NCBI GenBank assembly: GCA_029204225.1
Contig: CM055111.1
Coordinates: 23,930,899 to 23,994,898, forward strand
Length of the DNA stretch: 64,000 nucleotides
Source of the DNA: Diphasiastrum complanatum
Taxonomy: Eukaryota > Streptophyta > Lycopodiopsida > Lycopodiales > Lycopodiaceae
Direction: 5' to 3'
The notes beneath the pieces were generated by a model, which was not told the DNA's origin, made no database searches, and worked only from the letters and a program-made list of their open reading frames with translations. Numbering within the stretch: position 1 is the stretch's first letter; each line of letters opens with the position of its first letter. Shown here piece after piece: positions 7,924 to 38,203 of this stretch. A program made the translations under genes and the position numbers.

Positions 7924-9357
7924 TTGAAAGCTGTAGAGAATGTTGCTGCAATAGTTAGAGAATTGAGAATGAATAATCATAAGAATATAGATTTGTGGGT
8001 GGATGGATCAATTTATCCTAATAATCCAGCAACCAATTTGTGTCCAGATTTTAAGTCCGTAACTCATCTTCCCATATTTGCATGTGAAGGAAATAGCGCA
8101 TTACTTGGATATTGTCAAAGGTTGCGTGATATTGGAATGCATAGTGATCTTGTTTTGATCAACAATTACAGTTTGCTAATCAACAATTGCAATGTGCAAA
8201 TCAACAATTGTCTCATTATGTGCAACACACTAGTGTTGAAAACAATGCACTCAGGCATGCTATATCAAAGTTGAATGCTACAATCACTACTCTTCGGGGC
8301 TCAAACCAAGAAATGTTAGAATCCATGGAGAAGTTGTGATCCGACAGTTTAAAATCTGTTGTTGATATACAAGTTATCAAAAAGGCAATGATGAAAGGAA
8401 AGAAAGAGAGTACTGATGAAGAATATTGATGACTTATCAAATGAAAAACGAAATTGCAGAGTTGGATGAAAATGTGATACAAGGTGCATGTGATGTTTCT
8501 GGAATTAGCAGAAATGCTTATTCTACTTTTTTTAGAATAGTTAAAGAAGCCTTTTCTCAAGTGATGGTGAAGAAAACTTAGCTTCCTCATCCATATTGGA
8601 TAAGATTAGCAAGAAATTATTATAATGATGGAATGTTCAAAGTAGTTGGCAAACCACTTCATATAACTGAATTATACAAATCAGAATATGGTGAGCTCAA
8701 TTACAAGGATTGCAATATTTTCTTTGATATTGAAAATGCTCTAAAATACATTAATCAATTCTATAAACTAGATGAACATCAAGTAAATGGAAAGATAATT
8801 ATAGTAATAAAATTGGATGAATCCAAAATCATCAAAGGTCAAAAGTTGAAACGAGTGAGTGTCACTTTGATGAACAAAACTTTCATGGATATTTTCACGG
8901 ACAAATTATGGCAAGATTATAAAGAGACATTTGGAGGGCGAGAAATTTACAATCGAAAACCATGGAAGTTTTCAATTCAATGGCACCTTGCAGGGGATTT
9001 GAAAACATTGAAATGTATGTATAATGTCTCTCATGGGGCAACATCAAAGCATCCATGTCTTTATTGCATGAAGGATTGCTACAATATGAACTTGGAACGA
9101 CCAAACAACACAAGAAGCAGAAGAGTGCTCTGCCAATTCCATTAAAAAATGTTTACATATGCACATTACATGCTGAGGTTCGTATTATTGAAAAACTAAT
9201 TTATCTGCACATTCTCTTTGCATGGAATACAAAACCAAAGTCTGTGGCTAATGCAGCTATTAAGAGGTTGGAAAAAGTTCTTTCAGAGACAAGAATACAT
9301 AAAGGAAATGTCATCATTAAAAAAAGTGATAGAAATAGCGGACAAAATCACAAATGA
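7924..9357 (+). pseudogene. Unrecognised multi-frame ORF, possible DNA-transposon transposase relic
   Basis: Three pieces run in order. 7924-8335 includes LWVDGSIYPNNPATNLCP and a Gln/Asn-rich coiled segment (QQLQFANQQLQCANQQL). 8429-9145 is one frame, with a single TAG at 8579, containing WHLAGDLKTLKCMYNVSHG and a cysteine cluster HPCLYCMKDC. 9119-9357 continues in another frame with VYICTLHAEVRIIEKLIYLH. A long conserved-looking protein with one stop and one frameshift is visible. The CxxCxxxC next to an HG/HP motif suggests metal binding. I cannot assign a transposase family. Confidence 0.45.
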
Positions 9358-10857
9358 GTTATGAAAAAAGAATCTTGGAATCTCAGTGAGTTGGGTGGTG
9401 CCCATATTTATAGCCCTTTCATGTTAATCATAGCCATACATTTGTCAAGATATCAATAGAAGTCTGGGGCCTATATTTGTCGACCAATCAGACAGATACA
9501 ACATTGTACCTTCACTGGAATATAATAAATGGTCTATCGCCTTTTCGAATCATCATTAGAAGATTGAAGCATTAACGGTCGTCGTAATCCGTGCCTCGCA
9601 ATTTTCAATATTCACGAGGGTAATAATTATGGACGCTCGTCCTATTTAAGCACAAACAAGACGGCTTAAAAAATGCTTCTATATTCTTCATAGCCTTGGT
9701 CTGTATTGCCTTTACCTTGGCATATTTGGATTTATTGCGGCAAAAGTTCACTCAGATAATCTTTAAACAAATTCAAACATGCCAAGGTAAAGACAACATA
9801 GACCAAAAATACAACCGATATCAGTTCAACACGCAAGGCTGATTGCATTGAGAGGCACTTCAACAAGGGTGTGTGTTGCACTGATATCACAATTCTACAA
9901 ATCTGACATCGGTTCAGCACGCCCCATATCGGAATGATTATTTCAGATGGCGCACGTCGATTTGATATCGCAGCGAAAAAAATATCTTGAAATCACGACG
10001 ACATTATGAATGTAGAATATCGTAATTTCTTTGATATTTATGGCCTATCCTAGTCAATCTCAGTCATACATTTGTCAAGAAATGAATTGTCGTCTGGGCC
10101 CTTAAATGTCATCTAATCATTGTACATGTTCCATACTTATTCATAATTACTGTCATAATTGTTAAAAATTCACAATTCTAGCTTGACTAATTTTGGTCAT
10201 ATGACTTGTAAATAGTTAGATGGTCATGATGTGGCTTGTCACACGTGCCAAATAGCATAGGATTCCATTCATAAGGATGTTCTCAAGTAGACCTAAGTGT
10301 TAGAACCTTTGGAATGAGTCCAAATTATGCTTAGATACAAGGGAGAAAAAATAGGAGCTATTTTTGGTAATTTTTGCATTGTTGAGGGATCTCCAAGATT
10401 CCAACCCTAACTTGGTAGGGATGAAAGATCCACCAAAATTAGCATTAGGGATAGGTTTAGGGCTACTCATACCTGCCCAAAACCGTGATGGATCATGTAT
10501 ATATAGGTGATGATATCTCACCAAAATCAATCAAGCAATTTCATGTTTTTTCTCTCATAATGGTGCAATTGCTCTCTATGTCTATAATTGTTTGAGTACT
10601 TGTGATTACTAATGATTATAGGATTGAATGTAGGTCTGGTGTACAGTACTCAGACTTTGGGAGGCCGTACTTTCACACGTGTGAAGCCTTCTTCAAGGAT
10701 TTGGGCCATTTAGTGAGGTTCAAGCATAGATTTTTGATGGATTTTGATGGTTCAACTTGTGCTAATCTTATGAAATTATAATCTATTGTTTCCCTCAAAA
10801 TTTCAAGTGTTTTAGGATCCTTATTTGCTGTAATTTTTACAATAATTAGCCTTTTCA
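9358..10857. other. Gene-free AT-rich stretch
   Basis: Apart from the hairpin at 9698-9804 and scattered GATATCGGTTCAACACG-like phrases at 9811-9925, nothing recognisable is seen. Short frames here are not supported. Confidence 0.5.
9698..9804. repeat. 31-bp inverted repeat (hairpin)
   Basis: The arms 9698-9728 and 9774-9804 are reverse complements with about five mismatches. Both contain TCTTTACCTTGGCAT or its near copy. The loop is about 45 bp. It could be the core of a small foldback element. Confidence 0.6.
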
Positions 10858-11355
10858 ATTAATTATTTGTGATGACCCACGAACATTTATTAATGATTTG
10901 ATTTTTGATTTCCAAAACCCACTTTTTATAGATGTCACATTGCTTCCGCTACAATTCATGGCTGCTTTTGATTTCCCTGATTTTAAAAGCATGCATGCTG
11001 ATATGCTTAAATACGTCAGACTGGGGACTCCAGTGCTTGTGCTCCCATACATAACCAAGTAAGTGTATGCTTTTCAGATTTTATTAAGATAATTTTTTCA
11101 TATAAATTGTGAGTTACATGCATTCTAAAAAAACATATTGGTTTCTGATTGTAGTGCTCACTAGAGCTTTTATGTGCTATCTTTATATGTCAATGATGAA
11201 GGTGTATGCAATCCAATTTGTATAAAGATGAACTCTATTACACACACCCACAAAAAAGCGAGGAGCCATATGAAGAAAGTGCTGGAACTCTTTCCAGTAC
11301 CAGGTGCAACAGCCTATACAAAGCTCAAAATGGTTAATGTAGAGGTAAAATTTAT
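10858..11355 (+). other. Exon-like coding fragments of unknown protein
   Basis: From 10858 to about 11058 one plus-strand frame reads continuously (FINDLIFDFQNPLFIDV, then MLKYVRLGTPVLVLPYITK) and runs into a GTAAGTG donor-like site. A second open stretch at 11174-11355 includes KKARSHMKKVLELFPVPG. Amino-acid composition looks protein-like rather than random. I recognise no family, and no start or acceptor is convincing. Confidence 0.3.
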
Positions 11356-11854
11356 TTAATATTGGTTCAACGCGCGCTTCTAGTCATAGAAAAGAAAGAC
11401 CCTCAGCTTGAACAATGATACTCAAGTTGAGTGGTTCATATATTATCAAACATGATGTATACAAAAAAATGATATGACATAATACAAAATTACATTGTTC
11501 AAGTTCTATGGATCTTCAATTTCGATAGATGTTCATATGTCTTTGTATTTTATATGCTCTTCTTGCCTTGCTCTTGTTGGAGAGAGGGAGAGTAGCGAGA
11601 GTTGAGAAAGGTGTCATATGTTAGAAACGAAAAAGTTAGCTCAGAGGGGTAAGATGAACACGGAGGAGGTGGATGCTTGGAATGGCAGATAAAGGTTAGT
11701 GTGTGGCACTTGGGTGGACAAAAGGGACGGGCATTGGAAACCGTGCACTTTTGTCTCGAGAAGTGCGCAGGCAAAGTTACACAACAAGGGGCCTGCTACG
11801 ATATGTTCACGGTTGTTGGGTTTGATGGAGTTGGTCAGTTCATGAATAAGGAAG

Positions 11855-12366
11855 CTATGCCAGTCGTATGGCACAATTGAGGGGCCAGGGAATTTTAGAA
11901 AGGATTCCACTATCTGACTCAGCCTTGCAAAATGTTGAAATAACCAGAAAGTTATTCAACAGATGCGCAGCCGCCTGAATGACGGGTTCCGTGATAGCAT
12001 CTATCAGGTAACCATTGTTAGTCTGGATTGGGATTTTTGGTGCGGTTTGGGTGACGAACGGTTTGATCAGAGTTTTGGCGTGGCAATGGGAGATGGATTG
12101 ACGATCACCAGACATAATGCCAATGGTGACCATCGAGTCTGCGTTAATCCTGACCTTGTACGTAGTACCTTGGTATAGGAAGTGGAAGCGAGTCTTTTCC
12201 TCGTCCCAGATGGCATAAGCATGAAGGGCGAGGCCCACGTTAATCTCATAATGGAAAAGCGCCAGGTAAAAATCCATTGCCTCTAGAAGTGGGCCGGCTG
12301 TTTGCAGCCATGGCTGGATCAGAGCGTCAGAGGGTAAGGGCCAAATCTGTATGCTGGATCACCTGT
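11855..12366 (-). CDS. Unrecognised minus-strand ORF
   Basis: The frame stays open for about 170 codons, including IWPLPSDALIQPWLQTAG, then LEAMDFYLALFHYEINVGLA and FLYQGTTYKVRINADSMVTI. It ends near 11855 with a stop. The plus-strand frames across the same bases look like shadows. The Tyr/Phe-rich alternation of strands and turns suggests a beta-rich fold, possibly a gag-like or cell-surface-like fragment. No known domain is seen and no intron signals are evident. Confidence 0.35.
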
Positions 12367-14043: not shown

Positions 14044-14997
14044 ATGTCTTCATCTGGTTCACATTTCTTGGAGCATAGTGAGAGATTAACATCTTCCAAT
14101 TATGCAATGTGGAAGATTAGAATGGAATCATTATTGATTCTACAGGATGTAATGGACATTGTAAGTGGAGTTGAAGAAGAACCTGCAACACCTAATGAAG
14201 CTGCAACATTTAATAAAAGAACCAAAAGTGCTCTTCATTTCATTAAAATGAATGTCACAAATAAAGTGTTAAGAGAGATTAGTACATGCACCAATGCCAA
14301 GGAGGCTTGAGACACTTTCAAAATAGTCTATGAAATTAAGAATACTTCTAGATTGCTTACACTTAGAAATCAAATCTTTCTAAGTTATCAGAGAGTAGAT
14401 GAGAGTGTTTCATCTTATGTAATGAGAGTACAGGATCTTCATCAAGAGTTAGCAGGTATTGGTGATGCTCTTAAGAACACTGAACTTCTTCAAGTAGTCC
14501 TTAATGGACTTAGAGATGAGTATGAAAATATTGTGCAGACTTATGCTGTCAGGGACGAGCTTTCATCCTTGGAGACTCTTCAAGGTGTTCTCATTGCTGA
14601 AGAAAGTAGGCAAGAGAACAAGATGTTGAGGATCAACAGAGTTTCATTGAAGGAAGGTGGATATGATAAAGCACTCTTCACCAAGGACAAGTCAAGAGGC
14701 AAGGGCAAAGGTCAACAACACTTCAAGAAGGACAAGCCAAAGAAAGTAGTGAGGATCAATCCTCACAAGTTGCAACATCCAGTGGCAAGAAGAAGTCATC
14801 AAAGATCAAATGTTTCTTTTGTAGCAAGAAGGGCCACTATGCATCGAACTATTTCAAGAAGAAGAATTAATCCAAGCAAGCTAACCTTACTAATGAGGAA
14901 GAGTGTGAAGATATTGAGAGTGAAAGAGAGGATTCTTTAATGATGTCTAGCTTTTTATCTTTTCCTTTCAAGAATGAAGAAAAGAGAATGTTGACAT
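14044..14997 (+). pseudogene. Copia gag polyprotein (truncated, with stop and frameshift)
   Basis: It starts MSSSGSHFLEHSERLTSSNY and continues through the retrotran_gag/UBN2-type region (NYAMWKIRMESLLILQDVMD, LLTLRNQIFLSYQRVDESVS, GLRDEYENIVQTYAVRDELS). A TGA at 14308 replaces a Trp expected in EAWDTF. After about 14760 the coding sense moves to another frame with a zinc knuckle, CFFCSKKGHYASNY, whose final Cys is Tyr, and an acidic tail. Homology ends at about 14990, exactly where inverted repeat copy 1 begins, so pol has been cut off. Confidence 0.88.
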
Positions 14998-16450
14998 ATT
15001 CACTAATTCTGTGAACACGTTTTTTCTCTTTTTGTTGCTTATCTCTCTTGGATTACCTCTGTTGTTATGGTTCTCTGTGATTATTCTTCTTATTAGAATG
15101 TTTACAGAGCGGAAGCAATATTCAAGGATGCATTATGTATTTCCCAGCCTGTTAGTGGGTAACTCAAATCCGATACTCAGCTACATGCATACACTAGCCA
15201 CGCAACCATCTACAGCTCAAGCAGATCAGCATTTAGCACAGAGAGCGATCCTACTACTAACTACTGAATCAAAGAACAATCAAGAACTAGATTAGCTACT
15301 GAAACTAAAACCTGATTCAAGAAACAAGAAACAAGATTCCTAGCAGCATTTAACAATCTAGAAATCAAGAAACACATATTACTTGATGTCTAAATTATCC
15401 AAGAACATCAAGAACTAGAATGTCAAGACTATGCAGGATTTACACCACATTTCTAGCCTCTATAGTTTACTTGAATGCTGATTTCTACAAGATTCCACAA
15501 GCAAGAATTGAAGCTAATCTACAACTAAGCAAGAACAAGAAACAAGAATCTAGTTAATCCACAAGCAAGGAATCAAGCATGCTCATAGAAATATCACTCA
15601 AGATCATTGCCATGAACAAGGAGCTTAGTGATCTTCAAGAACTCGTGGAGGATCCTCTTTATTAGCTCAAGAGAACTTGAAAATACAATCAAAAAGCTCC
15701 CTCACAAGAGAGGGGGGCCTTAAATAAGCAAGAAGGCTGCCCATGTGGAGCCCATGTAGCATTCCACTAAATTCCACTAGAGGTCACCATCAAAAGGTGG
15801 CTCACTCTTACTATTTTAAGGAGGTCTACATTTATTACAATTATTCAAGGAAATGTTACTAGCTCCTACATGGTCATTCCTTCTTTGGGATACACCGTGT
15901 AGGTTTACATAGTTAATCACTATCTTCCTAGCTAGTATTTCCTCGGCTCTCATGCTCGGCTCGCAGCTTCTTTTGCTCTCTTCCTTCTGAGACCTCCTCG
16001 GTCATGGGTGAGAGATAACTTATGTCTTCAGCTTGGCTTGGCACTAGAGAATCGGCTAATAGAGAAAGATGGCAAAACCAGAGTACTAAAAGTTGATGTA
16101 TGGAAAAAGCTTGATAGTATGATTGCTATTTTAAGAAAAGAGAAATACTCTGATATTGATAAGAAAGCTGTCCAAAGGACTTGTGTCGAGTTTGTTAATG
16201 CAGTATCAAAAGCATGAAATGCTTCAAATTTTCAATATATCTAGATCGAAACATAAGATTAACATTATGATTTTGACATATGCAGCACATACTAAGAGAT
16301 CATACAACATTTTTTGCAAATACATATGGAAGCTTGAGTGTATAGTCATCACAAGGGATGGAGAAGTCACACTGGCAAGCACGAGCAACATTTCATCGAA
16401 ATACACAACATGGAGGAACCAATGAAAAACAAAACTACATTTGTCAATCC
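14990..16450 (-). repeat. Inverted repeat copy 1 (LTR-derived, 1.46 kb)
   Basis: Nearly every base has a reverse-complement partner at 24793-26265. It carries a gypsy-type LTR in minus orientation plus about 430 bp of attached sequence containing a 69-codon ORF at 16008-16217. A third, more divergent LTR relative is at 27645-28660. Confidence 0.85.
16008..16217 (+). CDS. 69-codon ORF of unknown function shared by both inverted repeats
   Basis: It reads ENRLIEKDGKTRVLKVDVWK and continues KKLDSMIAILRKEKYSDID to a TGA. The same ORF with one residue changed is at 25026-25235 on the minus strand. It has a charged, helical composition. It may be a captured gene fragment or a piece of a longer element protein. 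The first methionine is not well supported as a real start. Confidence 0.35.
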   Translation: MRDNLCLQLGLALENRLIEKDGKTRVLKVDVWKKLDSMIAILRKEKYSDIDKKAVQRTCVEFVNAVSKA

Positions 16451-17416: not shown

Positions 17417-18935
17417 CTACAGCCATTTCGATACAACATCTGAAAAATTCCACTCCCAGTAGGTGTAAATATTGTACAGTTTTGGGTATGTCATATTTAC
17501 ATTTAACAATAGACCTGCATCGTTGAATTCTTCAATATTCGCATGGCCTTCTGTAAAAATAGCTTGAACTCTGCATGTCGCCTCCAAAATTTTCATTTCC
17601 AATCGCTGTGCTTCAAAAATTGGTACTCCTTTATCCAGATGTACTCTAGCGCATACATGAACGTTGAGCCTATATACAGTTGAATGACAAAACTTTAAAT
17701 TTGCCCTGGATCATGGCCCAACATAGACAACCCTTTTGCTCTATGCTAAATTGTTCCCATAACCAGAGGAAATCTTCTTTTTCCCACTCTGTCTGCTAGT
17801 CCTCGAATGTCATGCCTACTAAGCCTGGTAGCATCAAATAATCGACATGCCACTGTAATTTGATATTAACATGGCAAGGACTCCACTTCCAGAATTGTTC
17901 AGAAAAAACTTGAAAGCATTCTGCACATACCTTCGACTAATTCCTCTTCGGTCGTTTTGCCTTAGGCTGCACTTCTGCAACGTCCTGTCTGTGGATGTCT
18001 GTAGTGAGCTTCTAGTCTTCGAGCTGTTGTTTGAGGTCTGCTATCTCCTTCTGTAGGTCAGAGATTTTGATGCAGGCTTTAGCGTACTCTAGGTGATCTA
18101 CCACCTTTGTACAATTCTACATTGTTTGTAGTTCCTTTGATAGACTCTTTATCTTTTCTAGGGCTTGTATATATTCATCATGCGCATCTGGCCCAGAGCA
18201 GATGGTAGTCTCAGAGGATAATTCATTCAACTCGGCGAGTTCTTCTTCGACTAGCATCTTGTCATTTTTTATCGAAAGAAGAAACTCGACTCGAAAATTC
18301 TCGAGCATTTGGTCCTGAAGAAATTGCAGCTTCAAATCTGGATTGATACAAAACTGTTGCATAACTGCAATGCAGATTTTGCCCTTATTCTCCTCGTAGT
18401 CTCCACTTGAAGAGTGGTCTGCAGAGTAGTCTTTTCTGTCTTGACCTTATTGAGCTTAGAGTTTAAAGAATAAAATTTTTTCTACAATTCTACAAATCTA
18501 GCCTAAAGTGCTTTATTGTTGTCTTGGAAAGACTGGGCTTCCTACGTTGATTGTTGAAGCATGCGGCCCAAAGCGCGATTTTGCTCGGTTAGCAATTTGT
18601 TGTCTACTTCCAAGGATTCAATCTTCTCAGCCAACATTTTAATGTCACTGTCATCTCGTCCATATGATGGAACAACTGCATCATACTATCTTGGATGTGC
18701 AGGTCATAAGCATGGAGTTTACCAACAATTTCCTTGGCACCCAAGGAGAACTAATGGTACCACCTGTATAGGTTTTCTTTGTCGTCCTCATCCGCATCTG
18801 TGGCTTCCTCATCAATCCCTTTGTCTTTTTCTTGCATCTGGGTGTAGGAGATGGTGTCTTCGTCACATTAGAGGAGTTCTCAATATCAAAAAAACCCTTT
18901 GTAAAGATACTTTTATTTTTTTTCTTTAGTTTCAA
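17417..18935 (-). pseudogene. Gypsy element B: upstream coiled-coil polyprotein region
   Basis: On the minus strand a path with scattered stops gives a Lys-rich start near 18935, long heptad text (DIKMLAEKIESLEVDNKLL, then LNELSSETTICSGPDAHDEY), and a more compact part with HVNIKLQWHVDYLMLPGLVG and FLWLWEQFSIEQKGCLCWAM, before EATCRVQAIFTEGHANIEEF. It lies upstream of the RT start, so it is likely the gag side of this family. No zinc knuckle or protease was found between it and the RT piece, implying internal deletion. Confidence 0.55.
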
Positions 18936-19330
18936 CCGTCACCAGGCCCAATCAAAATGCACAGATTTGAAATCTACATAACGTAGTTCAAATTAACTAA
19001 AAATAAAAATGCAATATAGAATACTTTGAAATTTGTGTCCGGGCAGCATGGACGTATCCCATTGGTTTCTTCTTCCTGCCCGACACGTGCTAATCTGCCC
19101 GATGTCAATACCTCAAGTTAAATTTACTTGACTATGCTGGTTAGTATAATGAAATTTTCTAACTATACTAGTTACAGTTATAAAAATATAGTATGTACAG
19201 TTACATAAAATATGGTATATGTAGTAACTGTGACTATGTTGGCATTCACATTAGATTAAATGTGATACGAAAAATTGAAATTAAGTATCATATTAGAGAG
19301 ATTTTTGGTGCCCAAGCTTTGAAAATAGCA
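18936..19330. other. Left flank of the three-gene island
   Basis: No gene is seen. A small inverted pair (GTGTCCGGGCAG near 19036 and CTGCCCGACAC near 19077) could form a hairpin. AT-rich sequence with ACTATRCTRGTTA-like repeats follows at 19127-19230. The island boundary is not marked by an obvious terminal repeat. Confidence 0.4.
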
Positions 19331-20026
19331 ATGGCAAGGAGACCCAGATCTACAATCGATTCTGTGATTCTTTACAATGAGAAAGATGAAGATGATAACT
19401 GGAAGCCAACAAAATATACAAAGAACTCATGGGTATTGCTGCATCCATCATCAAAGGGCAATTTTCGACAAAAGAAAAGAGCAAAAATGACTTACAAATC
19501 TTATTGGAAAGCAAAAAAATTGGAGTTTAAGACTACCCGGGGAGGTCAATCGATATCAGAAGTCTTAGTACAACATGTATATATACATTCAGAAATCAAA
19601 GTACATGATATCAATCCTTATAATCATCAAAAATGTAATTGTAAGTATATCAAAACATATGCACTCTACAGCAATCAAAGGTGATTTCCTTTATTGATGC
19701 TCTTCAGATTATGATTTAAATACTTCAACATTGTTTTTTTCTTTCAGATTTATATCCATCATGCATAAGTGAATGGGAGCCCGCACAATCACTTGCAGGA
19801 ATATTAGACGTGATTCACTCTGATGTTGGAAAGCTGCAATACAGAGGAAGAAGTCCAAAAGAACTTGCAGATTGTGGTATCTATGTACGCCACAAATAGA
19901 TGGAGGTTTTGGTAAGCTCGAAGCAATTCCATTGCCTAGTTTTCAAAGTGATGAGTGGCCTACTCCTGACAGCATTGTTTTTGAATCCCCTGAGATGCAA
20001 GCTACTCATTTATAGTAGAAATGCTA
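19331..20026 (+). pseudogene. Island gene L: unrecognised two-exon protein
   Basis: The ATG at 19331 (MARRPRSTIDSVILYNEKDE) opens an exon ending at 19640 before GTAAGTATAT. The acceptor TTTTCTTTCAG leads to exon 2 at 19748, and the split codon restores Tyr, giving LYPSCISEWEPAQSLAGILD. After about 50 codons the frame breaks; the likely C-terminus continues in another frame as LPSFQSDEWPTPDSIVFESP to a TAG near 20026. The middle (SYWKAKKLEFKTTRGG) loosely recalls the basic strand of NAC domains, but too weakly to name. It converges on the histone-Ulp1 gene. Confidence 0.5.
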
Positions 20027-20487
20027 TGAAGATAAGCACAGGCTCGAAAATTGTTCACCTAAGTTGGTTTATCTCATTGCATATATTTGTTTTCAGATTT
20101 ATCATCAACGGAAGACTCATAAGTACTTTATGTTTATTGCCATTTCAAAATAGAACAAAATAATAGAAAATGTCATCATTTACAATTGCACATTCACTAA
20201 TATTTGCCATATCACAGATGCGAAAAAGACAGGAGCTGATAACATGCTGCAAAGATCTACCTACAACAATCACCATTGTGGGAGAACAATAGTTTCAAAT
20301 AAACTTTAGTAAAAATCTGTGTATACAATCTTTCATTCAATAAATGAAAGCCCAAGTTGGGCATCTGTACATGTATTTTGTGCTCCCAAATTCATAAACT
20401 GGAGCAGCATTTGATATATCAATGTATATTTTTCTATGAAGTCTATACATGTATTTTTGTTCTATGCTATCTATATTTATTCTGATC

Positions 20488-22204
20488 TTAATTTAGTATA
20501 ACTACATAATCCTTTGCACCATCATCAATAATGGGAGGCTGAAGCCTTGCCCTAGCCAGTATACTCAGGATGATTTCTTGTCTAAATTTGTACACATGGC
20601 TTGATGTGTACTCAAGAAGTGTAAACTGCAAAATAGAACATTCATGTATTACTAATGGCCAAAAACATCACCAGAATAGAAAACTAATCATGATTCCAAA
20701 ATAAGAATAAACAGAGTTTATGACCTTAGAATATCAACATCTTGTTGAAGGTTGAAACACTCAAAAAACAACTTGGCATTGTATAATGTGTATCACCCAC
20801 AGCTGAATGAATCATTTTGCTGGGGTGACTGCAAAATGATATAGCACACAAGAAATCAATTATGAAATAGAATGAATTAGAATGAAAATATTATGTTAGA
20901 ATACTGATTTCAAAATGCTATTAAGAAAGACAGAGTTTACCTCCAAACTGACGATCTGCCAGTCCACGGAATGGGGAACGTCTGTAGGAATATATTTACT
21001 TAGATATGCAATACATCCTTATGCGTATTTCTCGTCGCATCTTGACACAAAAAAACTTTAATAATATTATCTACAGATCTCTTAATAGAGATCAGGTTTA
21101 AACTCCAATGGTCACTGCAAAATAAGATTGAAATTTCTTTAGATGCAATTCTGAGAACTATTTCCATTGACAATGCCAATGTTAATGCATAAAATAACAA
21201 GAAGCATTTAATATATCTTACTTCATATGATAAGGTATGAGCAGATACTTTGTTGCTGGTGTGAATCCACTTGTTAGACACTGTGACAATGTGTCATTAT
21301 TCTCCTTGAAGGCCTGAAGCAGAAAGTTACTCAGCACCAGCAACTCATTTGATGAATCTCTTGCAATGTCATATTGCAAGAGTGTAAGCCCGGACTCAAT
21401 CACAGGATCACTGATAGAAGCCCGTCTGTCTTTGAGGTCCAAGCAATCTAGAACTCTAAAATTAATACTAAAATCAAGTTCATCTAGTCTAAAGCAAAAA
21501 GGAGTACCAATTGTATCTATAGCATCGGATATGTCTTTCTCAAATTTAAGATAATCATTCGAATCTATATATGTATAAAAATTTGGAGGAGGAGGAGGTG
21601 GTGGATGTGTAGTATCTACAGCAATTAAAGGGGTATCCAAAACAGATGTAGTTATCTACAATGGATTCCGGGTTAGGCTTCATAGAATCTGTGGTGTCTA
21701 CGATTCTTACTTTCTTAGGAGCACGCTTGGGGGCTGTCTGCTTCCTAGGATGCTTTTTAGGAAGATCAGTCCTATCTAGAGGAGTTGGTCTAGGAGTAGC
21801 AGGCTGAGGTACATGTAACTTACAATACCTATCCCTCATTCTCATCAGGAGCTGAAAATCCTTGGGCATTATGGTAACTCTCTTGGAATGGATTGCAAGC
21901 AAAAGAGAATCCTCAAAAAAAAAAGACTAATGTAATCTTCAGCAGCCTCCTGAAGGCACTGAAGAGCACTGTGTGTGAATCTAACCAGCTGTCCGAGATC
22001 ATTTCTTGTTATGTTCAGGACAACACGGTAGAATGGAGCTCTTGGGATCAACAGAGCTATTGATCTCTGATACTTGCGTATCTCAGAGGGCCACTTGCTG
22101 CGGTTGCGCGTTCTAGGGCTAGCGGGTGGTGTGATGGCAATCGTAGGGGCTAAGGATGAGCCAGGAGAGAAGAAGTCCCTCCTTGTCTGCTTTCTCCTAT
22201 CCAT
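20488..22204 (-). pseudogene. Histone H3-fold / Ulp1-type cysteine protease fusion gene (decayed)
   Basis: The ATG at 22204 opens a short basic tail, then an H3 fold: SEIRKYQRSIALLIPRAPF, LQCLQEAAEDYISLF, and after a poly-T frameshift AIHSKRVTIMPKDFQL. A basic/proline-rich linker and a PPPPPPP run follow in a third frame, then a C48 peptidase: DPVIESGLTLLQYDIA, LLIPYHM (exon end 21222, GTAAGA donor), NDHWSLNLISI (exon 21114-20941) with a downstream candidate Asp, and SPQQNDSFSCG (exon from 20828). The last exon, 20625-20488, ends with TAA. His, Asp, Gln and Cys of the Ulp1 catalytic set are all present. C48 peptidases remove SUMO-like modifiers. Lesions are at least three frameshifts plus a TGA right after SCG. 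One gene is inferred from strand, order and splice phases. Confidence 0.75.
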
Positions 22205-23036
22205 GGACGTGTGCTATGGGATAGCGGACTTGTGCGTGACAGTTAGGATGAACAGGGAGGGATGATAAAGAACTCGTAGAGGACCGATATGTACGGACAA
22301 CATGTACGATATATCAAACTTTTGCGAGCCGAATATCAGAGAGAACGATTAGTTTTGAAGAAAGACGCACAAGTGCGATACGGGGAGACACGTAGGCAGA
22401 CGTATCGGACCTATGCGCATGGAAGGCGGTAGGAGGAATATCGATTGTGAAGGACGCGCACAAGTGCGATATTGGAGCGAAAAAAAAAATTGAAAAAAAT
22501 TCATCGAAGTTTGTGATTTTATATCATGGTTTGCACGTGCGAAAGAACATCTTGTCACATGTGTGGGAGTTGTACAGACAAATGCGAGAGCGACACATGT
22601 CACCCTGTCACATTACACATGCTGGATTTGTACGAGCAAATGCGAGAGCGACACGTGTTGTTGAGCAAACGAATGAACACGCGACACATGTCCAGGTGTC
22701 ATTTCACACGTGTGCAGGTGTCACCTCACACGTGCCTGCGCTTGTAGTCCAATTGAAAGTAGACACGTGTCCTAGGTCCGTTGACCACACGTGCAAAAAT
22801 TTAGTATAAATGGCACGAAAATCGATTAATTTTTTACCTTTTTCGTTCTCGAAATTCGCAGCATATTGCTCTTCTGCGCGCTCATTGCTGTCCGTTTGCT
22901 TGCAACTATACCTACTCGTGCACAAGTGCAATATTCGGTATCTGCCTACCGTAAATATCCCTCTTGTGCGCCATCTTGATGGTTAGTTTTTGTTCAGTTC
23001 TCCCTCGCGCACAAGTGCGATATTCACGATACTGCC
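22205..23036. promoter_or_regulatory. Divergent intergenic region with iterated palindromic motif and G-boxes
   Basis: This region separates two divergently read start codons (22204 minus, 23037 plus). CGCACAAGTGCGATA or a close variant occurs at 22366, 22457, 22918 and 23008, with half copies in reverse near 22228 and 22964. Two full copies lie near each gene. The centre carries five CACGTG cores between about 22650 and 22795, a 60-bp-spaced direct repeat of AAATGCGAGAGCGACAC, and a TATAAAT box near 22805 suited to the plus-strand gene. A shared bidirectional promoter is the simplest reading. Confidence 0.6.
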
Positions 23037-24549
23037 ATGGCCTCTTCCTCATCATCCTCATGAGATTCAGGCTTGAGTTCATTTCTTAGTGAATTTGGGA
23101 TTACTGAAAACCTAGACTTCTTCCACAGTCTATTCAGGCCATATCTACATGTTTTCAGGACTGCACAACCAAATTTTGATGTATTTTATAAACATTATGT
23201 CAGAGTTAGAGATATACTTAGTAAGCTTGTTTTCTCCATAGGTCCACTCCAGTACATGCATTATACTGATCTTGTTCATTTCTTCCCAGCTTTCAGACAT
23301 AGACTGGATAGAATGTTCACCAAATTGTTTGATCTTTTCAAAAGCAGTTCAATGTGTCCGTATTGCAACAAGAAATGTCGATTGGTTGAATATCAGAGTG
23401 GTTTCATACTTTTCCTGTTAGTTCAGATCCTAGATGATGAAGAAGTTTCTGTTGCTGACCCTCCTTTTGCATCATCCTCTGTATAGTTAGCTATTAAGGA
23501 TATCACTTTCTTATCGACACTCTTGATAAGAAAAGTGACTTTATTGATGTAAATACTGATGTTCTCCGGGATTCTTTGATTGGCCGAAATACATCTGATG
23601 ATGAATCCAAATCTATAGAGGAGTCGAAATGTCTTTTCAATTTGCCTGTATATTATATTAATGACAATGTATATTTTACTACTACTGATTTATGTAAATT
23701 TTTTGACTATCGTGAAGACGAGGTTCTATGTTTATTATCTGGCACAATTTTCGAATTCTCCAACTTTGTAGTTTTTGAAACAGATGACCTTGTTGCTGGT
23801 ATTGATTTTGATGATGAGGAGGGACTTATGACCGGTGGAGAATGCTTGACTAAGACTTTATCAAATATAGTTGAGGATGGGTGAGGCAGACCATCCGATG
23901 AAGAATTCACGGCATTTCAATCTCAGATGGGCTTCTCTCGTCCATCATTAATGCATTTCACTGATGATTCCACTTCAGTACGTGGTCACTATATTGATCA
24001 TCCTGATCTGGTTGTTGTTGCTGATGAAGAATGTGTAAGTGTTTAAACTTCCTTGCATTAGAATGTTTTCAATCACTGAATGTGTTTTTGCTAACATATT
24101 TCCTATTGCAGGATGCTCTCATAATAGATGATTTTGCTGCGAGACGAGGTGGTTTCAAACAACAGGCATCCTCGTTCCAGAGGGACAGTAGACTAGGCCA
24201 CTATCTTAGACATTTCCTGAAGAATGAGATCTGTATTGCTCATTCCAAGCTGAGCTCAGTCGGGGAGAGTCTTGTAATGACAGTTAAAGCTTTATCATTT
24301 TACCTTGGAGGACATAAATTTGTTAAGACAAATAAGATCATTTTTGTCAAAAGATCTTATTTTTTGAACATTTTAGGCTTTACTGATGGGAATGTTCCTT
24401 TAAGGAGCTCCCATTATTCATTGTATTCCACTTATATTGAGCTTAGTGGAAATAAGGATAATGCACAACTATTAGATGCATATGCTAGCAGAGAATTTCT
24501 TCATGACAATACTGCCATAGAATTTGATACAAGATTTGATGATGAATAG
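23037..24549 (+). pseudogene. Island gene R: unrecognised two-exon protein
   Basis: The ATG at 23037 sits in a strong plant context (GCCATGGCC) and is followed by six Ser codons and an in-frame TGA at 23061. The same frame then continues to 23486 (FGITENLDFFHSLFRPYLHV, and a CPYCNKKC pair of Cys). After one frameshift near 23490 the next frame runs to 24034 (LPVYYINDNVYFTTTDLCKF) with another TGA at 23882. A 77-nt GTAAGT...TTGCAG intron (24035-24111) joins in phase to exon 2 (IIDDFAARRGGFKQQASSFQ to the stop at 24549). No family is recognised. Three lesions make it a pseudogene here. Confidence 0.55.
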
Positions 24550-24792
24550 TTGACACTTTGTATTTTGGTATAGTACAATCTATACATTTACATTGAGTAT
24601 TTCTGCTCTCTTGTTCAATGAATTTGCAAAGCAATTCTGAACATGTCATGATTTGATGACAATGATGACCTTCTACTCAACAATCATCTAATTTTCTCTT
24701 CCTGTATGAACTTGCATGCTTTTCTAAACTTGTTGTATTGTGTGGACTTTGTTATATGTCGAATCTGACCTCTGCGGTAGAACCACTAAAAG

Positions 24793-26265
24793 AATTGACA
24801 AATGTAGTTTTTTTTTTCACTGGTTCCTCCATGTTGTGTATTTCGATGAAATGCTACTCGTGCTTGCTAGTTTGACTTCTCCATCCCTTGTGATGACCAT
24901 ACACACAAGCTTCCATATGTATTTGCAAAAAATGTTGTATGATCTCTTAGTATGTGCTGCATATGTCAAAATCATAATGTTAGTCTTATGTTTCGATCTA
25001 GATATATTGAAAATTTGAAAGCATTTCATGCTTTTGATACTGCATTAACAAACTCAACACAAGTCCTTTGGACAGCTTTCTTATCAATATCAGAGTATTT
25101 TTCTTTTCTTAAAATAGCAATCATACTATCAAGCTTTTTCCATACATCAACTTTTAGTACTCTGGTTTTGCCATCTTTCTCTATTAGCCGATTCTCTAGT
25201 GCCGAGCCAAGCTGAAGACATAAGTTATCTCTCACCCATGATCGAGGAGGTCTCAGAAGGAAGAGAGCAGAAGAAGCTGAGAGCCGAGAAAATACTAGCT
25301 AGGAAGATATTGATTAACTATGTGAGCCTACATGGTGTATCCCAAAGAAGGAATGACCATGTAGGAGCTAGTAACATTTCCTTGAATAATTGTAATAAAT
25401 GTAGATCCTTCTTAAAATAGTAAGAGTGAGCCACCTTTTGATGGTGACCTCTAGTGGAAGGGCAAATTCCACATGTAATTTCTAATTTAGTGGAATTGCC
25501 ACATGGGCTCACATGGGCAGCCTTCTTGCTTATTTAAGGGGCCCCCTCTCTTGTGAGGGAGCTTTTTGATTGTATTTTCAAGTTCTCTTGAGCTAATAAA
25601 GAGGATCCTCCACGAGTTCTTGAAGATCACTAAGCTCCTTGTTCATGGCAATGATCTTGAGTGATATTTCTATGAGCATGCTTGATTCCTTGCTTGTGGA
25701 TTAACTAGATTCTTGTTTCTTGTTCTTGCTTAGTTGTAGATTAATTTCAATTCTTGCTTGTGGAATCTTGTAGAAATCAGCATTCAAGTAAACTATAGAG
25801 GCTAGAAATGTGGTGTAAATCTTGCATAGTCTTGACATTCTAGTTCTTGATGTTCTTGGATAATTTAGGCATCAAGTAATGTGTGTTTCTTGATTCCTAG
25901 ATTGTTAAATGTTGTTAGGAATCTTGTTTCTTGTTTCTTGAATCAGGTTTTAGTTTCAGTAGCTAATCTAGTTCTTGATTGTTCTTTGATTCAGTAGTTA
26001 GTAGTAGGATCGCTCCCTGTGCTGAATGCTGATCTGCTTGAGCTGTAGATGGTTGTATGGCTAGTGTATGCATGTAGCTGAGTATCAGATTTGAGTTACC
26101 CACTGACAGGTTGGGAAATACATAATGCATCTTTGAATATTGCTTCTACTCTGTAAACATTCTAATAAGAAGAATAATCACAGAGAACCATAACAACAGA
26201 GGTAATTCAAGAGAGATAAGCAACAAAAAGAGGAAAAACATGTTCACAGAATCAGTGAATATGTG
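24793..26265 (+). repeat. Inverted repeat copy 2 (LTR-derived, 1.47 kb)
   Basis: This is the reverse complement of 14990-16450, with small differences. Read on the plus strand it holds the attached 430 bp, then an LTR-like body with CTTATTTAAGGGGCCC (TATA-like) near 25528 and a CA-ending region before gag-type sequence. It may also serve as the 5' LTR of the gypsy piece that follows. Confidence 0.85.
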
Positions 26266-26489: not shown

Positions 26490-27648
26490 CCGGACCCATG
26501 AGCAACCGCTGATTTATCTATGACGAAATATGACATTTCATGGCTGACTGTAAAGTTAAAAACCAATACCATGCAGAATGTCCCGACTGTGTTCGCAAAC
26601 ATAGCTTCAAAGACTGTCCTAAACAACCTAACAGGATCCTTCTTGCACGTCATATCACATCTGAACCTGTTAGAGTTCTTACTAGAACACAATGCCAACA
26701 ACAAGAACAGCAACAAAACCATGGACAATCAGCTGACCCACATGGAAGCCATTTGACGGCTCCACAGTACCAAAAGATTACCCAGACCCAAAAGTGGAAC
26801 AAAGGCAATACAACAAATTTCGAGATGAATTTTTGCGAGAGAAAAAACATATGGACAGTCCGTTATCAGCTCATATCCCCGAAAAGGAGCAATCACTCCA
26901 AGGACTTGAAGTATTTTCTGACCTCCTACAAGCTCAATTCACAATGCCATTCCATAGTGCTATCAAATCCTTCACCGAACTTCAACGTTATATCCATCGT
27001 AGTTTTCAGCTGCCTCATATTCTTGATGAACAGCGAAAACCAGAAGCAATTCCTAAACTTCCTCAGATTCCTATGAATCTGATGAATATAGGTGTTGCTA
27101 AGGGGAATAGCATCACACTACCCTTGTCCTATAAAGATTATCCCACAGTATCTGCTATCCTCGATAGCGGATTAGGCGTCAATATAATGGATTTGTCATT
27201 GGCAAAGTCATGGGGCTTCAAAACCCTCGATCAACCACGATATAAACTTCTTATGGCTGATCAACGAGTTACCGACCCTGCTGGTCATTTATCAAATATA
27301 AAAGTTTGAATAGCAGGTGTCAAGTTTATCATCGATTGTGTCATCTTAGACCTATCAGAAGATGCCAATACGTATAAACTCCTTCTTGGTACACCCTGGC
27401 TCCAGATGGCAGATGTTGTCCAAGACTGGAAGAACATCAAAATTACCTTTGGCAACCACGACAAATGAGTCACGGTTGACCCAAATGGCCATGTCAAGCC
27501 CGCCAAGGTATATGATGATTGGTCATCTACAACATATGATGAATCAGATTGTGTCCCGATCCAACCAAAAGGCCACTATACACGAACCACGGACATAATC
27601 AATTGGGGTCGTGCACTAGCTATCATGGACTGTGCAGTTATTTTGTAG
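26490..27648 (+). pseudogene. Gypsy gag nucleocapsid and aspartic protease remnant
   Basis: A zinc knuckle appears first (ECPDCVRKHSFKDCPK, spacing CX2CX3HX4C). After a frame change comes a gag-side helix region (EKEQSLQGLEVFSDLLQAQ) and the retropepsin loop AILDSGLGVNIMDLSLAKSW with the DSG triad intact, ending LLLGTPWLQMADVVQDW. No RT, RNase H or integrase follows; an LTR begins at 27645. It is either a large internal deletion or a non-autonomous derivative. Three stops or shifts are visible. Confidence 0.85.
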
Positions 27649-30211: not shown

Positions 30212-30628
30212 TGTAGCGCAGGCATCCCAAAGGGAGCCGGGAACCACGACTTAGCTTCCTAGCCTTCAACTCTTGCCATCCAAACCCACAAACCTGGCGC
30301 CATGCCAGATCGGGGGTCCCGATGTGGGTGACTTCCCTCCAAGCAAGCCGCCCGACATACATCAAACTTAACCAAAACAAAGCTTCATTACAAACGAGTA
30401 ACATCCATTCCAAGCAAGCGGTCTGACTTACATCAAACTTAACCAACTGAAAGCTTCGTCACGAGCGTTGGAAGCCAACCTGGCGCCACGCCAGACTGGA
30501 CAACCATAAACAGGTAACGTCCACCCAAGCAAGCCATCCAACTCAGCCGACAGGTTAGAGCCCGTTCCCCAAGAGCTTAACCCATTCACGTTCATGCAAG
30601 GAACACTCAGAACCACAAGCCACGACAG
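30212..30628 (+). repeat. Truncated LTR copy (same family as the insertion at 30886)
   Basis: It starts TGTAGCGCAGGCATCCCAAA and matches 30886-31375 in order, with a gap. It stops at CCACGACAG where SABATH-derived antisense sequence begins. Reading frames on the minus strand here are repeated in both copies and are not genes. Confidence 0.8.
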
Positions 30629-32228
30629 TTGAAATCATTGGAGGGAAGATCTGAAAAAAAAGGCTTGAAATCTGGAACTGTTTGTCCCTCTGATTCATAT
30701 CTTTGCTGCAGCTTGCCCACAAGGGCGCTGACAATAGACAATGTGTTGGGCCCCGATGAACATCCAGATCTGCAACATGCACAGGGCCACTCCTGGGGAG
30801 TTCCACTTTCTCTAAGGCTTGCATCAAAAAATGTCCAGTCGACTGGATTACTCCTGCTTGCATCCAAGAGTTTTGAGCATAGCTTTGTAGCGCAGGCATT
30901 CCAAAGGGAGCCGGGAACCACAACTTAGCTTCCCAGCCTTCAACTCTTGCCATCCAAGCCCACTTGACATACAAGCAGCCAACTCGCCAACAACGATCAG
31001 ACTTAACCAACTTGAAGTTCCGAAAACCAACATTGAGATCCAACCTGGCGCCATGCCAGATCGGGGGTCCCGATGTGGGTGACTTCCCTCCAAGCAAGCC
31101 GCTCGACATACATCAAACTTAACCCACTCGAAGCTTCGTTACAAACGAGTAACATCCATTCCAAGCAAGTGGTCTGACTTACATCAGACTTAACCAACTG
31201 AAAGCTTCGTCACGAGCGCTGGAAGCCAACCTAGCGCCACGCCAGACTGGACAGCCATAAACAGGTAACTTCCACCCAAGCAAGCCATCCAACTCAGCCG
31301 ATAGGTTAGAGCCCATTCCCCAAGAGCTTAACCCATTCACGTTCATGCAAAGAACACTCAGAACCACAAGCCGCGACAAATATGTAAACAACCAGTTCCT
31401 GGACCAAATGGTCCCGACAGCATACCGCTAGCGCCACGGACCGAATGGTCCCGACGGCATACCGTTGGTGTCCCGGGATACGACCCTCTGCCATGTGCCA
31501 ACTTAAAAATTTGGAAGCGGCCTTACAACTGGCGCTTTTACCGAACACTGAAACCCAGAAGGTAATCAGAGTCAGTTTGAGAAAAATCCCACTTTATTGG
31601 TAAATCTGAGAAGGTTACATTTCAAGTGTGTGACCGACCCTAGTCTCCGGGGCGCTAGCATGCCAAGGCGAGAGCCATGACAACATTCTAGCAAGGGAGG
31701 TTGAGACTTGGTTGGAGCTCGCCCTGAGTCGCAACCCGCACTCCCCTATAGTATTGGTGTGATTCGGCACCCCCCCTCATACCAAGCACTCTACCCAAGC
31801 TGGTAAAGCACGTTTTTTTCTCTCTAGGATTTTCTCTTTCTAGAAAGTCATTTTCTCTCTCTAGATTTTATTGATCTCCAGGCTTCCTTTAATCATGCCT
31901 AGATCGTGTGAGGTGATTGCACATTGATCTGAGCTCTCTGGACTCCGCTAGAACTGATCAAAGATTTTTAGCCATAGGAACTTGGCGCCGGCTGGATTCT
32001 GGTTACAGTGGCGCCGGGAGCAGCACCGGCGCCAGGAGCAGCAGGGGCGCTGCTGGCGCCGGGCCATAGCTGGCGCCGGAAGTAAAGCTTGTAAAGGTAG
32101 CTTTACAACAAGCTTCCATCACCCACACCCTCTTGCATCCGAAGCTGCCTCTCTAAATCAACGCCATTTCTGCTTGTATAAGGAAATGTGGATGCATTGG
32201 GAATCTGTTCTGCCTGAGATTGTGCCAT
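30629..32228 (-). pseudogene. SABATH methyltransferase pseudogene, exon 1 (split by an LTR)
   Basis: The minus strand matches exon 1 of the intact gene at 38204. The 5' part (32228 to 32116) covers the start codon and the SRNGVDLERQLRMQEGVG region; the 3' part (30885 to 30629) covers SYAQNSWMQAGVIQSTGH, a motif I region with indels, and SDLPSNDFN. A 1225-bp LTR separates the parts, and the end is lost at another LTR copy. No later exons are present. It is the head-to-head partner of the intact gene. Confidence 0.88.
30886..32110 (+). mobile_element. Solo-LTR-like insertion with 5-bp target duplication
   Basis: It begins TGTAGCGCAGGCATTCC and ends CTTTACAACA, flanked on both sides by AGCTT (30881-30885 and 32111-32115). 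Removing it with one AGCTT restores the SABATH exon 1 text, so the borders are exact. TG...CA ends and a 5-bp duplication fit LTR integration. Near the right end five GGCGCC palindromes cluster at 31980-32080, including TTGGCGCCGG, which looks like a tRNA primer site. Confidence 0.82.
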
Positions 32229-37224: not shown

Positions 37225-38203
37225 GCAATTTAAAAAGAAAATCAAAATTCTAAGTGATTTATGTTTTTGGGTCATAATGTTGGGTGGTCTCAAACATGAT
37301 TGATGACAAATCTCGTCTTGAACGCTTATATGTAATAAACTTCATTCTATGAACTTTACAAATGTGTAAGTTGAGTCTAATATTAATAGAAAACAACGAG
37401 TGTACTTTAAACTTATGGCACAACAACGTAATAAACTTCATTCTATGAACCTTACAAATGTGTAAGTTAAGTTTAATATTAATATAAACATATGGCACAC
37501 TTACCTAATAGACTTTATCCTATGAACCTTACAAATGTGTAATTTGAGTTTAATATTAATAGAAAATAAGAGTGTACTTTAAACTTATGGCACAATTAGG
37601 TAATAAACTTCCTTCTAAGAACATTACACATGTGTAAGTTGAGTTTAATATGAATAGAAACAACAAGAGTACCTTATGCATTTGTAATATATCTATTATA
37701 AATAATAAGCAATTATCACTCAAACTTTATTGAAGGTAATAAATTATTTTTTTTTAACAATTTTGTAGCATTGCTTTATGCGTAAGAAAGAGCCTTGCCC
37801 GGGCCTTCCCCCTTGCTCTCAGGTGCATCACAATACAAAGGCCCTTCCCATATACATGAGTGCAAGATAACATGGGCATGGTTATGAACCTTGGGCTCAT
37901 GACATCAAGGAAAGGCGCTCAAAAAAGGCCTCCCCCTATACACAAATGCCTAGAATGGGCACATGCATTTAATGTGAAGGTGTGCATCCAAGGGTCCATG
38001 TGAAATGAGACATGTTACTGGGGTGGGGGTCAATCTTCCTGTATGTGAAATTGACTCTACCTCTAGTGCGTCTCAATCTTTCACTTGCCAACTGGCTCTC
38101 TCCTCCTCCTCACGCTTTTCTTGTTTCTTTGTTGGCCCAGTCTCCGTTTCCATAGCTTGTTCAAGATCAGAGGATTGTGAGTGAGAGGTGCCAATCCAAT
38201 CCC
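37225..38203. repeat. Right arm of SABATH inverted duplication, including the promoter side
   Basis: Mirror of 32230-33490. About four tandem ~90-95-bp units lie at 37310-37680, then sequence shared with 32580-33010 leads directly to the intact gene's ATG. Any promoter of the SABATH gene must lie here. I see no clear TATA box at the expected distance. Confidence 0.8.

Follow-up and report, generated by a model that had tools for sequence, protein, structure and literature searches.

A histone H3-like domain joined to a Ulp1/SENP-type protease in a multicopy DNA transposon of Diphasiastrum complanatum

A locus on the minus strand at positions 20488 to 22204 of a 64,000-nucleotide stretch of the Diphasiastrum complanatum genome (assembly GCA_029204225.1, contig CM055111.1, forward-strand positions 23,930,899 to 23,994,898; here called the window) raises the question of whether a plant gene can join a histone H3 fold to a cysteine protease, and what such a protein would be for. 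The window locus itself is a dead copy of a multicopy DNA transposon. In intact relatives from the same genome, one spliced reading frame, as predicted from the DNA, joins an H3-like histone to a Ulp1/SENP-type (C48) protease. The role that we favor, with somewhat less than even confidence, is that the H3-C48 protein would be the element's chromatin-bound anti-silencing factor.

One gene for a histone fold and a protease

We set the exon borders of the window copy by alignment with eight relatives found elsewhere in this genome (L014, L015, L016, L018, L020, L021, L026, and L028). The gene has four exons and encodes, in order along the minus strand, a short basic tail, the H3 fold, a proline-rich, basic linker, and the protease. 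Exon 1 (21222 to 22204) contains the tail (MDRRKQTRRD), the H3 fold (approximately 22099 to 21824), the linker, and, from approximately 21556, the start of the C48 domain. Exon 2 (20941 to 21114) carries the catalytic His block, NDHW; exon 3 (20725 to 20828) carries the block PQQ-x-D-S-F-S-C-G, with the active-site Gln and Cys; and exon 4 (20488 to 20625) supplies the C-terminal part of the protease and the stop.

The original prediction, made from the window sequence, had proposed this domain order, strand, and location, with splice points at 21222/21114, 20941/20828, and 20625, and all of these agree with the alignment. It had also held that the exons keep phase, but the window copy is not one open frame. 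A run of T's (21915 to 21924, minus strand) is 2 bases longer than in the eight relatives and breaks the frame inside the H3 fold; exon 2, which measures 178 to 187 bases in the seven relatives where it is present, has 174 here; and a straight translation of the joined exons runs into 16 stops. The linker has a gap relative to all relatives, the Pfam Histone domain is found in two pieces in different frames (1.5e-13 and 5.3e-07), and the FSCG motif is present in the DNA but absent from the straight reading of the joined exons.

Intact copies were found elsewhere in the genome. In L020 and L026, all four exons are open, with GT/AG borders and no internal stop, and encode 470 residues. Both domains score over their Pfam cut-offs within these single chains, Histone at 1e-27 and 8.7e-27 (cut-off, 26.4 bits) and Peptidase_C48 at 1.1e-10 and 5.4e-10 (42.2 and 39.9 bits; cut-off, 20.7). 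Together with an intact gene in a diverged family (L047; see below), these copies uphold the prediction that a single gene joins the two domains. Among the nine copies of this family (family 1) that we compared, L020 and L026 were fully open and five, including the window copy, were broken; in L028, exon 1 is open but protease exons 2 to 4 are gone, and L018 contains one stop and is truncated at its end.

Searching the genome with exon 1 of L028 gave at least 122 scored copies among 9842 first-look candidates. This number is a lower bound, with scoring limited to the best candidates, and some rows look like duplicate contigs; because the best candidates alone were scored, the set leans toward good copies. 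Every one of contigs C1 to C23 has scored copies, as do smaller contigs. In all 122, a single frame runs from residue 10 or earlier to residue 313 or later (of 329), spanning the H3 part and the beginning of the protease, so the joining is not due to chance. Exon 1 is free of stops in 22 copies and contains stops in the other 100. A profile search of the genome with the C48 family gave 3 matches, but it matches exons singly and so is unfit for counting copies. When exon 1 was searched against a protein database, all 10 matches had a histone domain and none had C48 in the precomputed Pfam annotation.

We compared selection between subfamilies 1a (six copies) and 1b (three copies) of family 1. 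The pooled ratio of nonsynonymous to synonymous rates (dN/dS) was lowest in the H3 fold, at 0.13, followed by the protease (0.29), the tail (0.32), and the linker (0.48). Both domains are under purifying selection between the subfamilies. Chance or artefact as the source of the H3-protease joining was considered and is ruled out by the copy number together with this selection. In six copies, C-to-T changes in the gene region amounted to 7.2% at CG, 6.4% at CHG, and 2.0% at CHH sites, with 0.7% for the reverse change; because of the C-to-T excess at CG and CHG sites, these copies were probably methylated there.

A histone search of the genome gave 153 matches, 13 of them at scores of canonical H3. 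We fetched 20 of the remaining, noncanonical matches: 8 were family 1, the fusion, and 12 formed a second family. Five further loci comprised family 3 (L045, L047, and L048) and two chimaeric open reading frames (ORFs). L047 is intact, with four exons in the same order as in family 1 and 517 residues; L048 has one stop, and the later exons of L045 are broken. With exon 1 of L047 as query, the genome yielded 118 match rows, of which 8 span the full length (1 to 356) without a stop. The L047 protein matches Pfam Histone at 2.6e-23, and its identity to L020 is 35% along the full chain and 29% within the protease part. Intact fusions thus occur in two families that share 35% identity, with the active-site block common to family 1 and L047.

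The original prediction had named intact relatives with the histone and the protease always on separate transcripts as one outcome that would count against it. At the DNA level, this is not the case in families 1 and 3, where protease parts of L020 and L047 matched 8 of 8 and 3 of 3 loci by tblastn. It is family 2 whose H3 occurs without protease homology, with no such match in 12 of 12 loci (9.9 kb each), and in the four family 2 copies read, the H3-like ORF stops at the end of the fold (RRERN, stop). That an H3 alone suffices in family 2, and that a proline-rich linker separates the domains in the fusion, would suit a protease that cuts the fusion or other element proteins, like viral maturation proteases, leaving the H3 to act alone once released. 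C48 enzymes, however, usually act on ubiquitin-like tails, and we consider processing distinctly unlikely.

Stops in 100 of the 122 scored copies raise another explanation, that functionless pieces of H3 and protease were captured and hitchhike in a repeat. There are precedents: plant transposons often carry captured genes (PMC13317346, as far as its available part goes), and in Dothideomycetes, hAT transposons have amplified an H3 coding sequence to many copies, all of them inactivated by repeat-induced point mutation (RIP) in P. fijiensis, whereas many are potentially active in Pyrenophora (PMC6710886, available part). That part of the fungal account mentions no protease; in D. complanatum, the H3 is diverged, under selection, and fused. 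The purifying selection on both domains between subfamilies, the retention of the same fusion and active-site block in two families only 35% identical, and an H3 common to three families all argue against a passenger, which we regard as very improbable.

The transposon that carries the gene

The original prediction had also offered a mobile-element protein as a possibility, and inverted repeats and a linked transposase now place the gene in such an element. Both ends were found in two copies (L031+L020 and L030+L026), with inverted repeats CATTAGAGGAGTTCTCAATATCAAAAAGAC and, at both ends of each, CA..TG termini (CATTAGAG...CTCTAATG). The L031+L020 copy is 8681 bp long and has 0 mismatches to the repeat query at both ends. 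No target site duplication was seen by eye in these two copies. In the orientation of L020, the gene order is transposase (plus), gene B (minus), the H3-C48 gene (plus), and gene D (minus); in L011, of family 2, the middle gene pair is inverted. The element is a DNA transposon of approximately 8.7 kb, as judged from the L020 copy, with four gene regions and a transposase that is RAG1/Transib-like in predicted fold.

The window copy has kept its left end, where the outer terminal inverted repeat (18866 to 18896, plus strand; CATTAGAGGAGTTCTC...) has 1 mismatch to a 31-base query from other copies. Its homology to other copies ends at 25181. Between these points lie, besides the H3-C48 gene, the remains of accessory gene D (19184 to 20163, plus strand), the remains of accessory gene B (23064 to 24549, plus strand; several exons), and a C-terminal piece of the transposase (24774 to 25175, minus strand) that has H(4)H and QGMEKS motifs and contains stops. 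ORFs similar to gene D occur in L020, L026, and L028 and, by eye, in family 2. Gene B has no Pfam domain over cut-off, nor do the gene D ORFs scanned in the relatives. A BAH domain in a left-end ORF was considered and dropped for want of Pfam support.

All four exact GCACTTGTGC sites in the window (at 22367, 22458, 22920, and 23009) fall in the stretch between the divergent H3-C48 and B genes (22205 to 23063), which also has several CACGTG/CATGTG-like sites. Of nine copies of family 1 that were scanned, eight have 2 to 4 exact GCACTTGTGC sites, none of them farther than 820 bp upstream from where the H3-C48 gene starts, compared with a mean of 0.05 per 64 kb in the shuffled window. L018 has no exact site, and there was none in the six family 2 loci scanned.

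Transposase homology (E value of 1e-6) was found within the fetched stretch at 17 of 25 H3-transposon loci versus 0 of 18 host H3 loci, although the latter represent 12 places and shorter stretches (approximately 3.3 kb versus mostly 9.9 kb). The transposase copies of L020 and L026 hold stops, and hence no autonomous copy of family 1 was identified. No Pfam family matched the linked transposase pieces above its cut-off. The fold predicted for a relative is a RAG1/Transib-like DDE fold; the C(2)C cysteines, C300 and C303, are invariant in 21 aligned sequences, and H(4)H and E were read by eye in P0063, L011, and L020. Because PDB sequence searches with the transposase gave no RAG1, the link to RAG1 rests on predicted fold and motif order. 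There was no match in transposase scans of viral and prokaryote contigs or, at E values of ≤0.001, in a Foldseek comparison with viral models. The family has many relatives in environmental data (P0011 to P0089) and no Pfam model, and it looks like an undescribed one.

The predicted DDE fold, the C(2)C and H(3-4)H motifs located between the second D and the E, and the CA..TG termini are shared with CMCT (CACTA/Mirage/Chapaev/Transib) transposons. From RAG1/Transib the element differs in its termini (CATTAGAG) as well as in lacking a PDB sequence match to RAG1; no 5-bp duplication was seen in the two copies with both ends, and no RAG2 partner was recognized.

In the two chimaeric ORFs mentioned above, part of the transposase runs into the H3 fold: L046 (1342 to 2589, plus strand; 416 residues) and L049 (716 to 1888 of the reverse strand; 391 residues). 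These chimaeras apparently arose by internal deletion, and the transposase-histone fusions could be nonautonomous derivatives.

What the two halves suggest about function

An H3 fold is present in all three families. Of 15 copies of families 2 and 3, 9 have the host H3 tail ARTKQTAR directly after the Met, and the remaining 6 differ from it at one position (in one of them, a stop). The true start in family 2 is uncertain, there being an upstream Met (MSEEM). The ARTKQTAR codons differ synonymously between family 2, family 3, and the host; beyond this stretch, similarity to host H3 ends, and it resumes at the fold. The host-like tail includes K4. K9 methylation of H3 supports the silencing of plant transposons, and K9 is present in all 18 host H3 loci read (12 places) but in 0 of 25 transposon copies (10 of family 1, 12 of family 2, and 3 of family 3), where position 9 is Asp (19) or Gly (3) in families 1 and 2 and Leu (3) in family 3. 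No ARKS motif (K27) precedes the fold in L020, L045, L047, or L009.

A tail so close to that of the host could make the protein a mimic that stays outside nucleosomes, its tail and fold soaking up readers, chaperones, and methyltransferases while the protease de-SUMOylates them. The match over residues 1 to 8 in families 2 and 3 speaks for such a decoy; an H3 fold held at a dN/dS of 0.13 between subfamilies is more conserved than tail mimicry needs, and we find this explanation rather unlikely. A second H3-tail-like stretch in the linker (PRKQTAPKRAPKK), similar by eye to H3 residues 16 to 27, was dropped after HMMER gave it 1.4 bits.

A tree of 22 H3 folds placed families 1 and 3 together (86/82) and grouped all transposon H3s with a provisional sequence of one plant CENH3, AtHTR12 (81/89, not firm). 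Families 1 and 2 are 55 to 60% identical to host H3, more than to the provisional AtHTR12 sequence (49 to 55%). By eye, the motif LLIP and, in family 3, RW are in common with CENH3. Of the centromere-like chromatin that the original prediction had suggested, this grouping leaves a weak hint. Such features, in a gene that lies beside one for a RAG1-fold transposase, would be in keeping with a targeting role: the histone fold would tether the transposition machinery to one class of chromatin, such as centromere-like nucleosomes, and the protease would free or activate the transposase or lift a SUMO brake at the target. However, family 1 copies are spread over every one of contigs C1 to C23 rather than gathered in one place, and the link to CENH3 is weak, being based on that provisional sequence. 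We judge targeting to be unlikely, if worth keeping in mind.

For the protease half, a profile of L020, L026, and L047 searched against the PDB matched a Ulp1-like SUMO protease (E value, 7e-06), SENP2 (7e-05, over approximately 160 residues), and yeast Ulp1 (2e-04). Like SENP2 and Ulp1, it has His, Gln, and Cys blocks, and in the three proteins, H330 (in N-D/K-H-W), Q394 (in Q-Q), and C400 (in F-S/N-C-G-W-Y) are invariant. The differences from SENP2 and Ulp1 are the N-terminal histone and the conservation of Asn rather than Asp between His and Gln. Hence, of the His, Asp, Gln, and Cys that the original prediction had listed, the Asp is not supported, the invariant residues between His and Gln including instead an Asn, N354 (in M-N-S), while the other three stand, FSCG with the reservation noted above for the window copy. 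Papain has a Cys-His-Asn active site, and the third catalytic position here seems to be Asn as well, although HMMER alignments leave its exact placement uncertain.

We favor the anti-silencing role because a Ulp1-type domain is joined to a K9-less histone in copies whose C-to-T changes point to past methylation at CG and CHG sites. Its H3 part would place the protein in or near the element's chromatin, either built into nucleosomes or attached to chaperones or readers of H3. There, its protease would take SUMO, or a modifier like it, off silencing proteins, and the outcome would be local relief of silencing while the element moves. In its fullest form, this reading would have a RAG1-fold transposon lineage of seedless plants encode a CENH3-derived H3, with K4 kept and K9 unmethylatable, together with a Cys-His-Asn SUMO protease, so as to build unmarkable nucleosomes and remove SUMO from the silencing machinery; we hold that version to be doubtful.

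Several observations weigh against an anti-silencing role. The tail of family 1 is changed, to DRRKQTRR or near it. Plant CENH3 also lacks K9, so the loss of K9 may reflect ancestry and not selection. The protease is missing from family 2, and therefore the two functions are separable. There is no invariant Asp between H330 and Q394 in the alignment of L020, L026, and L047, and among 5.8 billion proteins (699 candidates), the protease half had no relative at E values of ≤0.001. In L047, Pfam detects no C48 at an E value of 0.1, and so the kinship of the family 3 protease to C48 rests on its alignment with family 1. Finally, the H3 fold shows no steady constraint inside subfamily 1a: L020 and L026 differ by 2 synonymous and 11 nonsynonymous changes (ratio, 1.5), and the ratios are 0.52 for L020 and L028 and 0.30 for L026 and L018. 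Weak constraint of this kind is as expected if single copies decay after insertion.

The nearest known systems are the Ulp1-carrying Mutator-like elements, namely Kaonashi (KIU) and, with VANC, the VANDAL elements of Arabidopsis. These too are plant DNA transposons with a Ulp1/C48 accessory gene, multicopy and kept over time, and VANC genes are anti-silencing genes; a histone part is absent from the account, the word "histone" occurring 0 times in the available part of the review (PMC13317346). Their transposase is Mutator, whereas a relative of the transposase here has a RAG1-like predicted fold, which would make the two different. Fungal TET/JBP transposons, including ESTA and EnSpm, are of the CMCT type, carry a captured gene for an epigenetic mark, and are proposed to escape silencing; their cargo is a dioxygenase, neither histone nor protease, and ESTA makes TA duplications (PMC12730594, available part), none of which was seen in the element here. 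Each half of the gene thus has a transposon precedent, H3 in fungal hAT elements and Ulp1 in Mutator-like elements. The original prediction knew of no described gene joining the two domains; we likewise found none in the open-license literature searched, and the joined gene is without known precedent in those searches.

If the anti-silencing role is correct, a selfish element would rewrite its own chromatin by a new route, with a selected histone fused to a protease in two diverged families, where the cargo known from transposons includes anti-silencing proteins as well as captured enzymes for marks on DNA or histones. The idea can be tested directly by swapping domains along the series that nature provides: H3 by itself, H3 with protease, and no K9 in any copy read. 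A transposase family without a Pfam model and RAG1-like in predicted fold is also of interest for the origin of RAG.

Other features of the window and genome

Two further pieces of RAG1-fold transposase lie in the window. One (8444 to 9351, plus strand) is more diverged, with D, D, and C(2)C blocks, and belongs to another member of the family; the other (16062 to 16448, plus strand) is inverted relative to the piece at 24774 to 25175. With three transposase pieces, the window probably contains parts of three such elements. Genome-wide, histone-like first-look candidates number in the thousands (6325 and 5526), far above the host H3 genes listed, and transposons that carry an H3 may make up a substantial share of the genome.

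A carboxyl methyltransferase exon, which we take to be of the SABATH type, lies at 38156 to 38770 (plus strand; PF03492 at 1.9e-45). A degraded ORF at 30555 to 31112 (minus strand) looks similar to it and has no Pfam match. Retrotransposon remains occur at 14311 to 14940 (plus strand), 26737 to 27309 (plus strand), and 56651 to 57436 (minus strand), where Pfam gave one match to a copia-type gag (PF14223, 5.9e-11) and two weak ones, below cut-off, to aspartyl proteases.

Outside the window, L021 joined with L029 contains an array of CCCTTAG-like repeats (approximately 10634 to 12081 of the join) where homology to the other copy ends. Among database proteins, P0003 of Chlorella sorokiniana has an H3 fold fused to an N-acetyltransferase domain, a fusion that may be real or may be a gene-model error.
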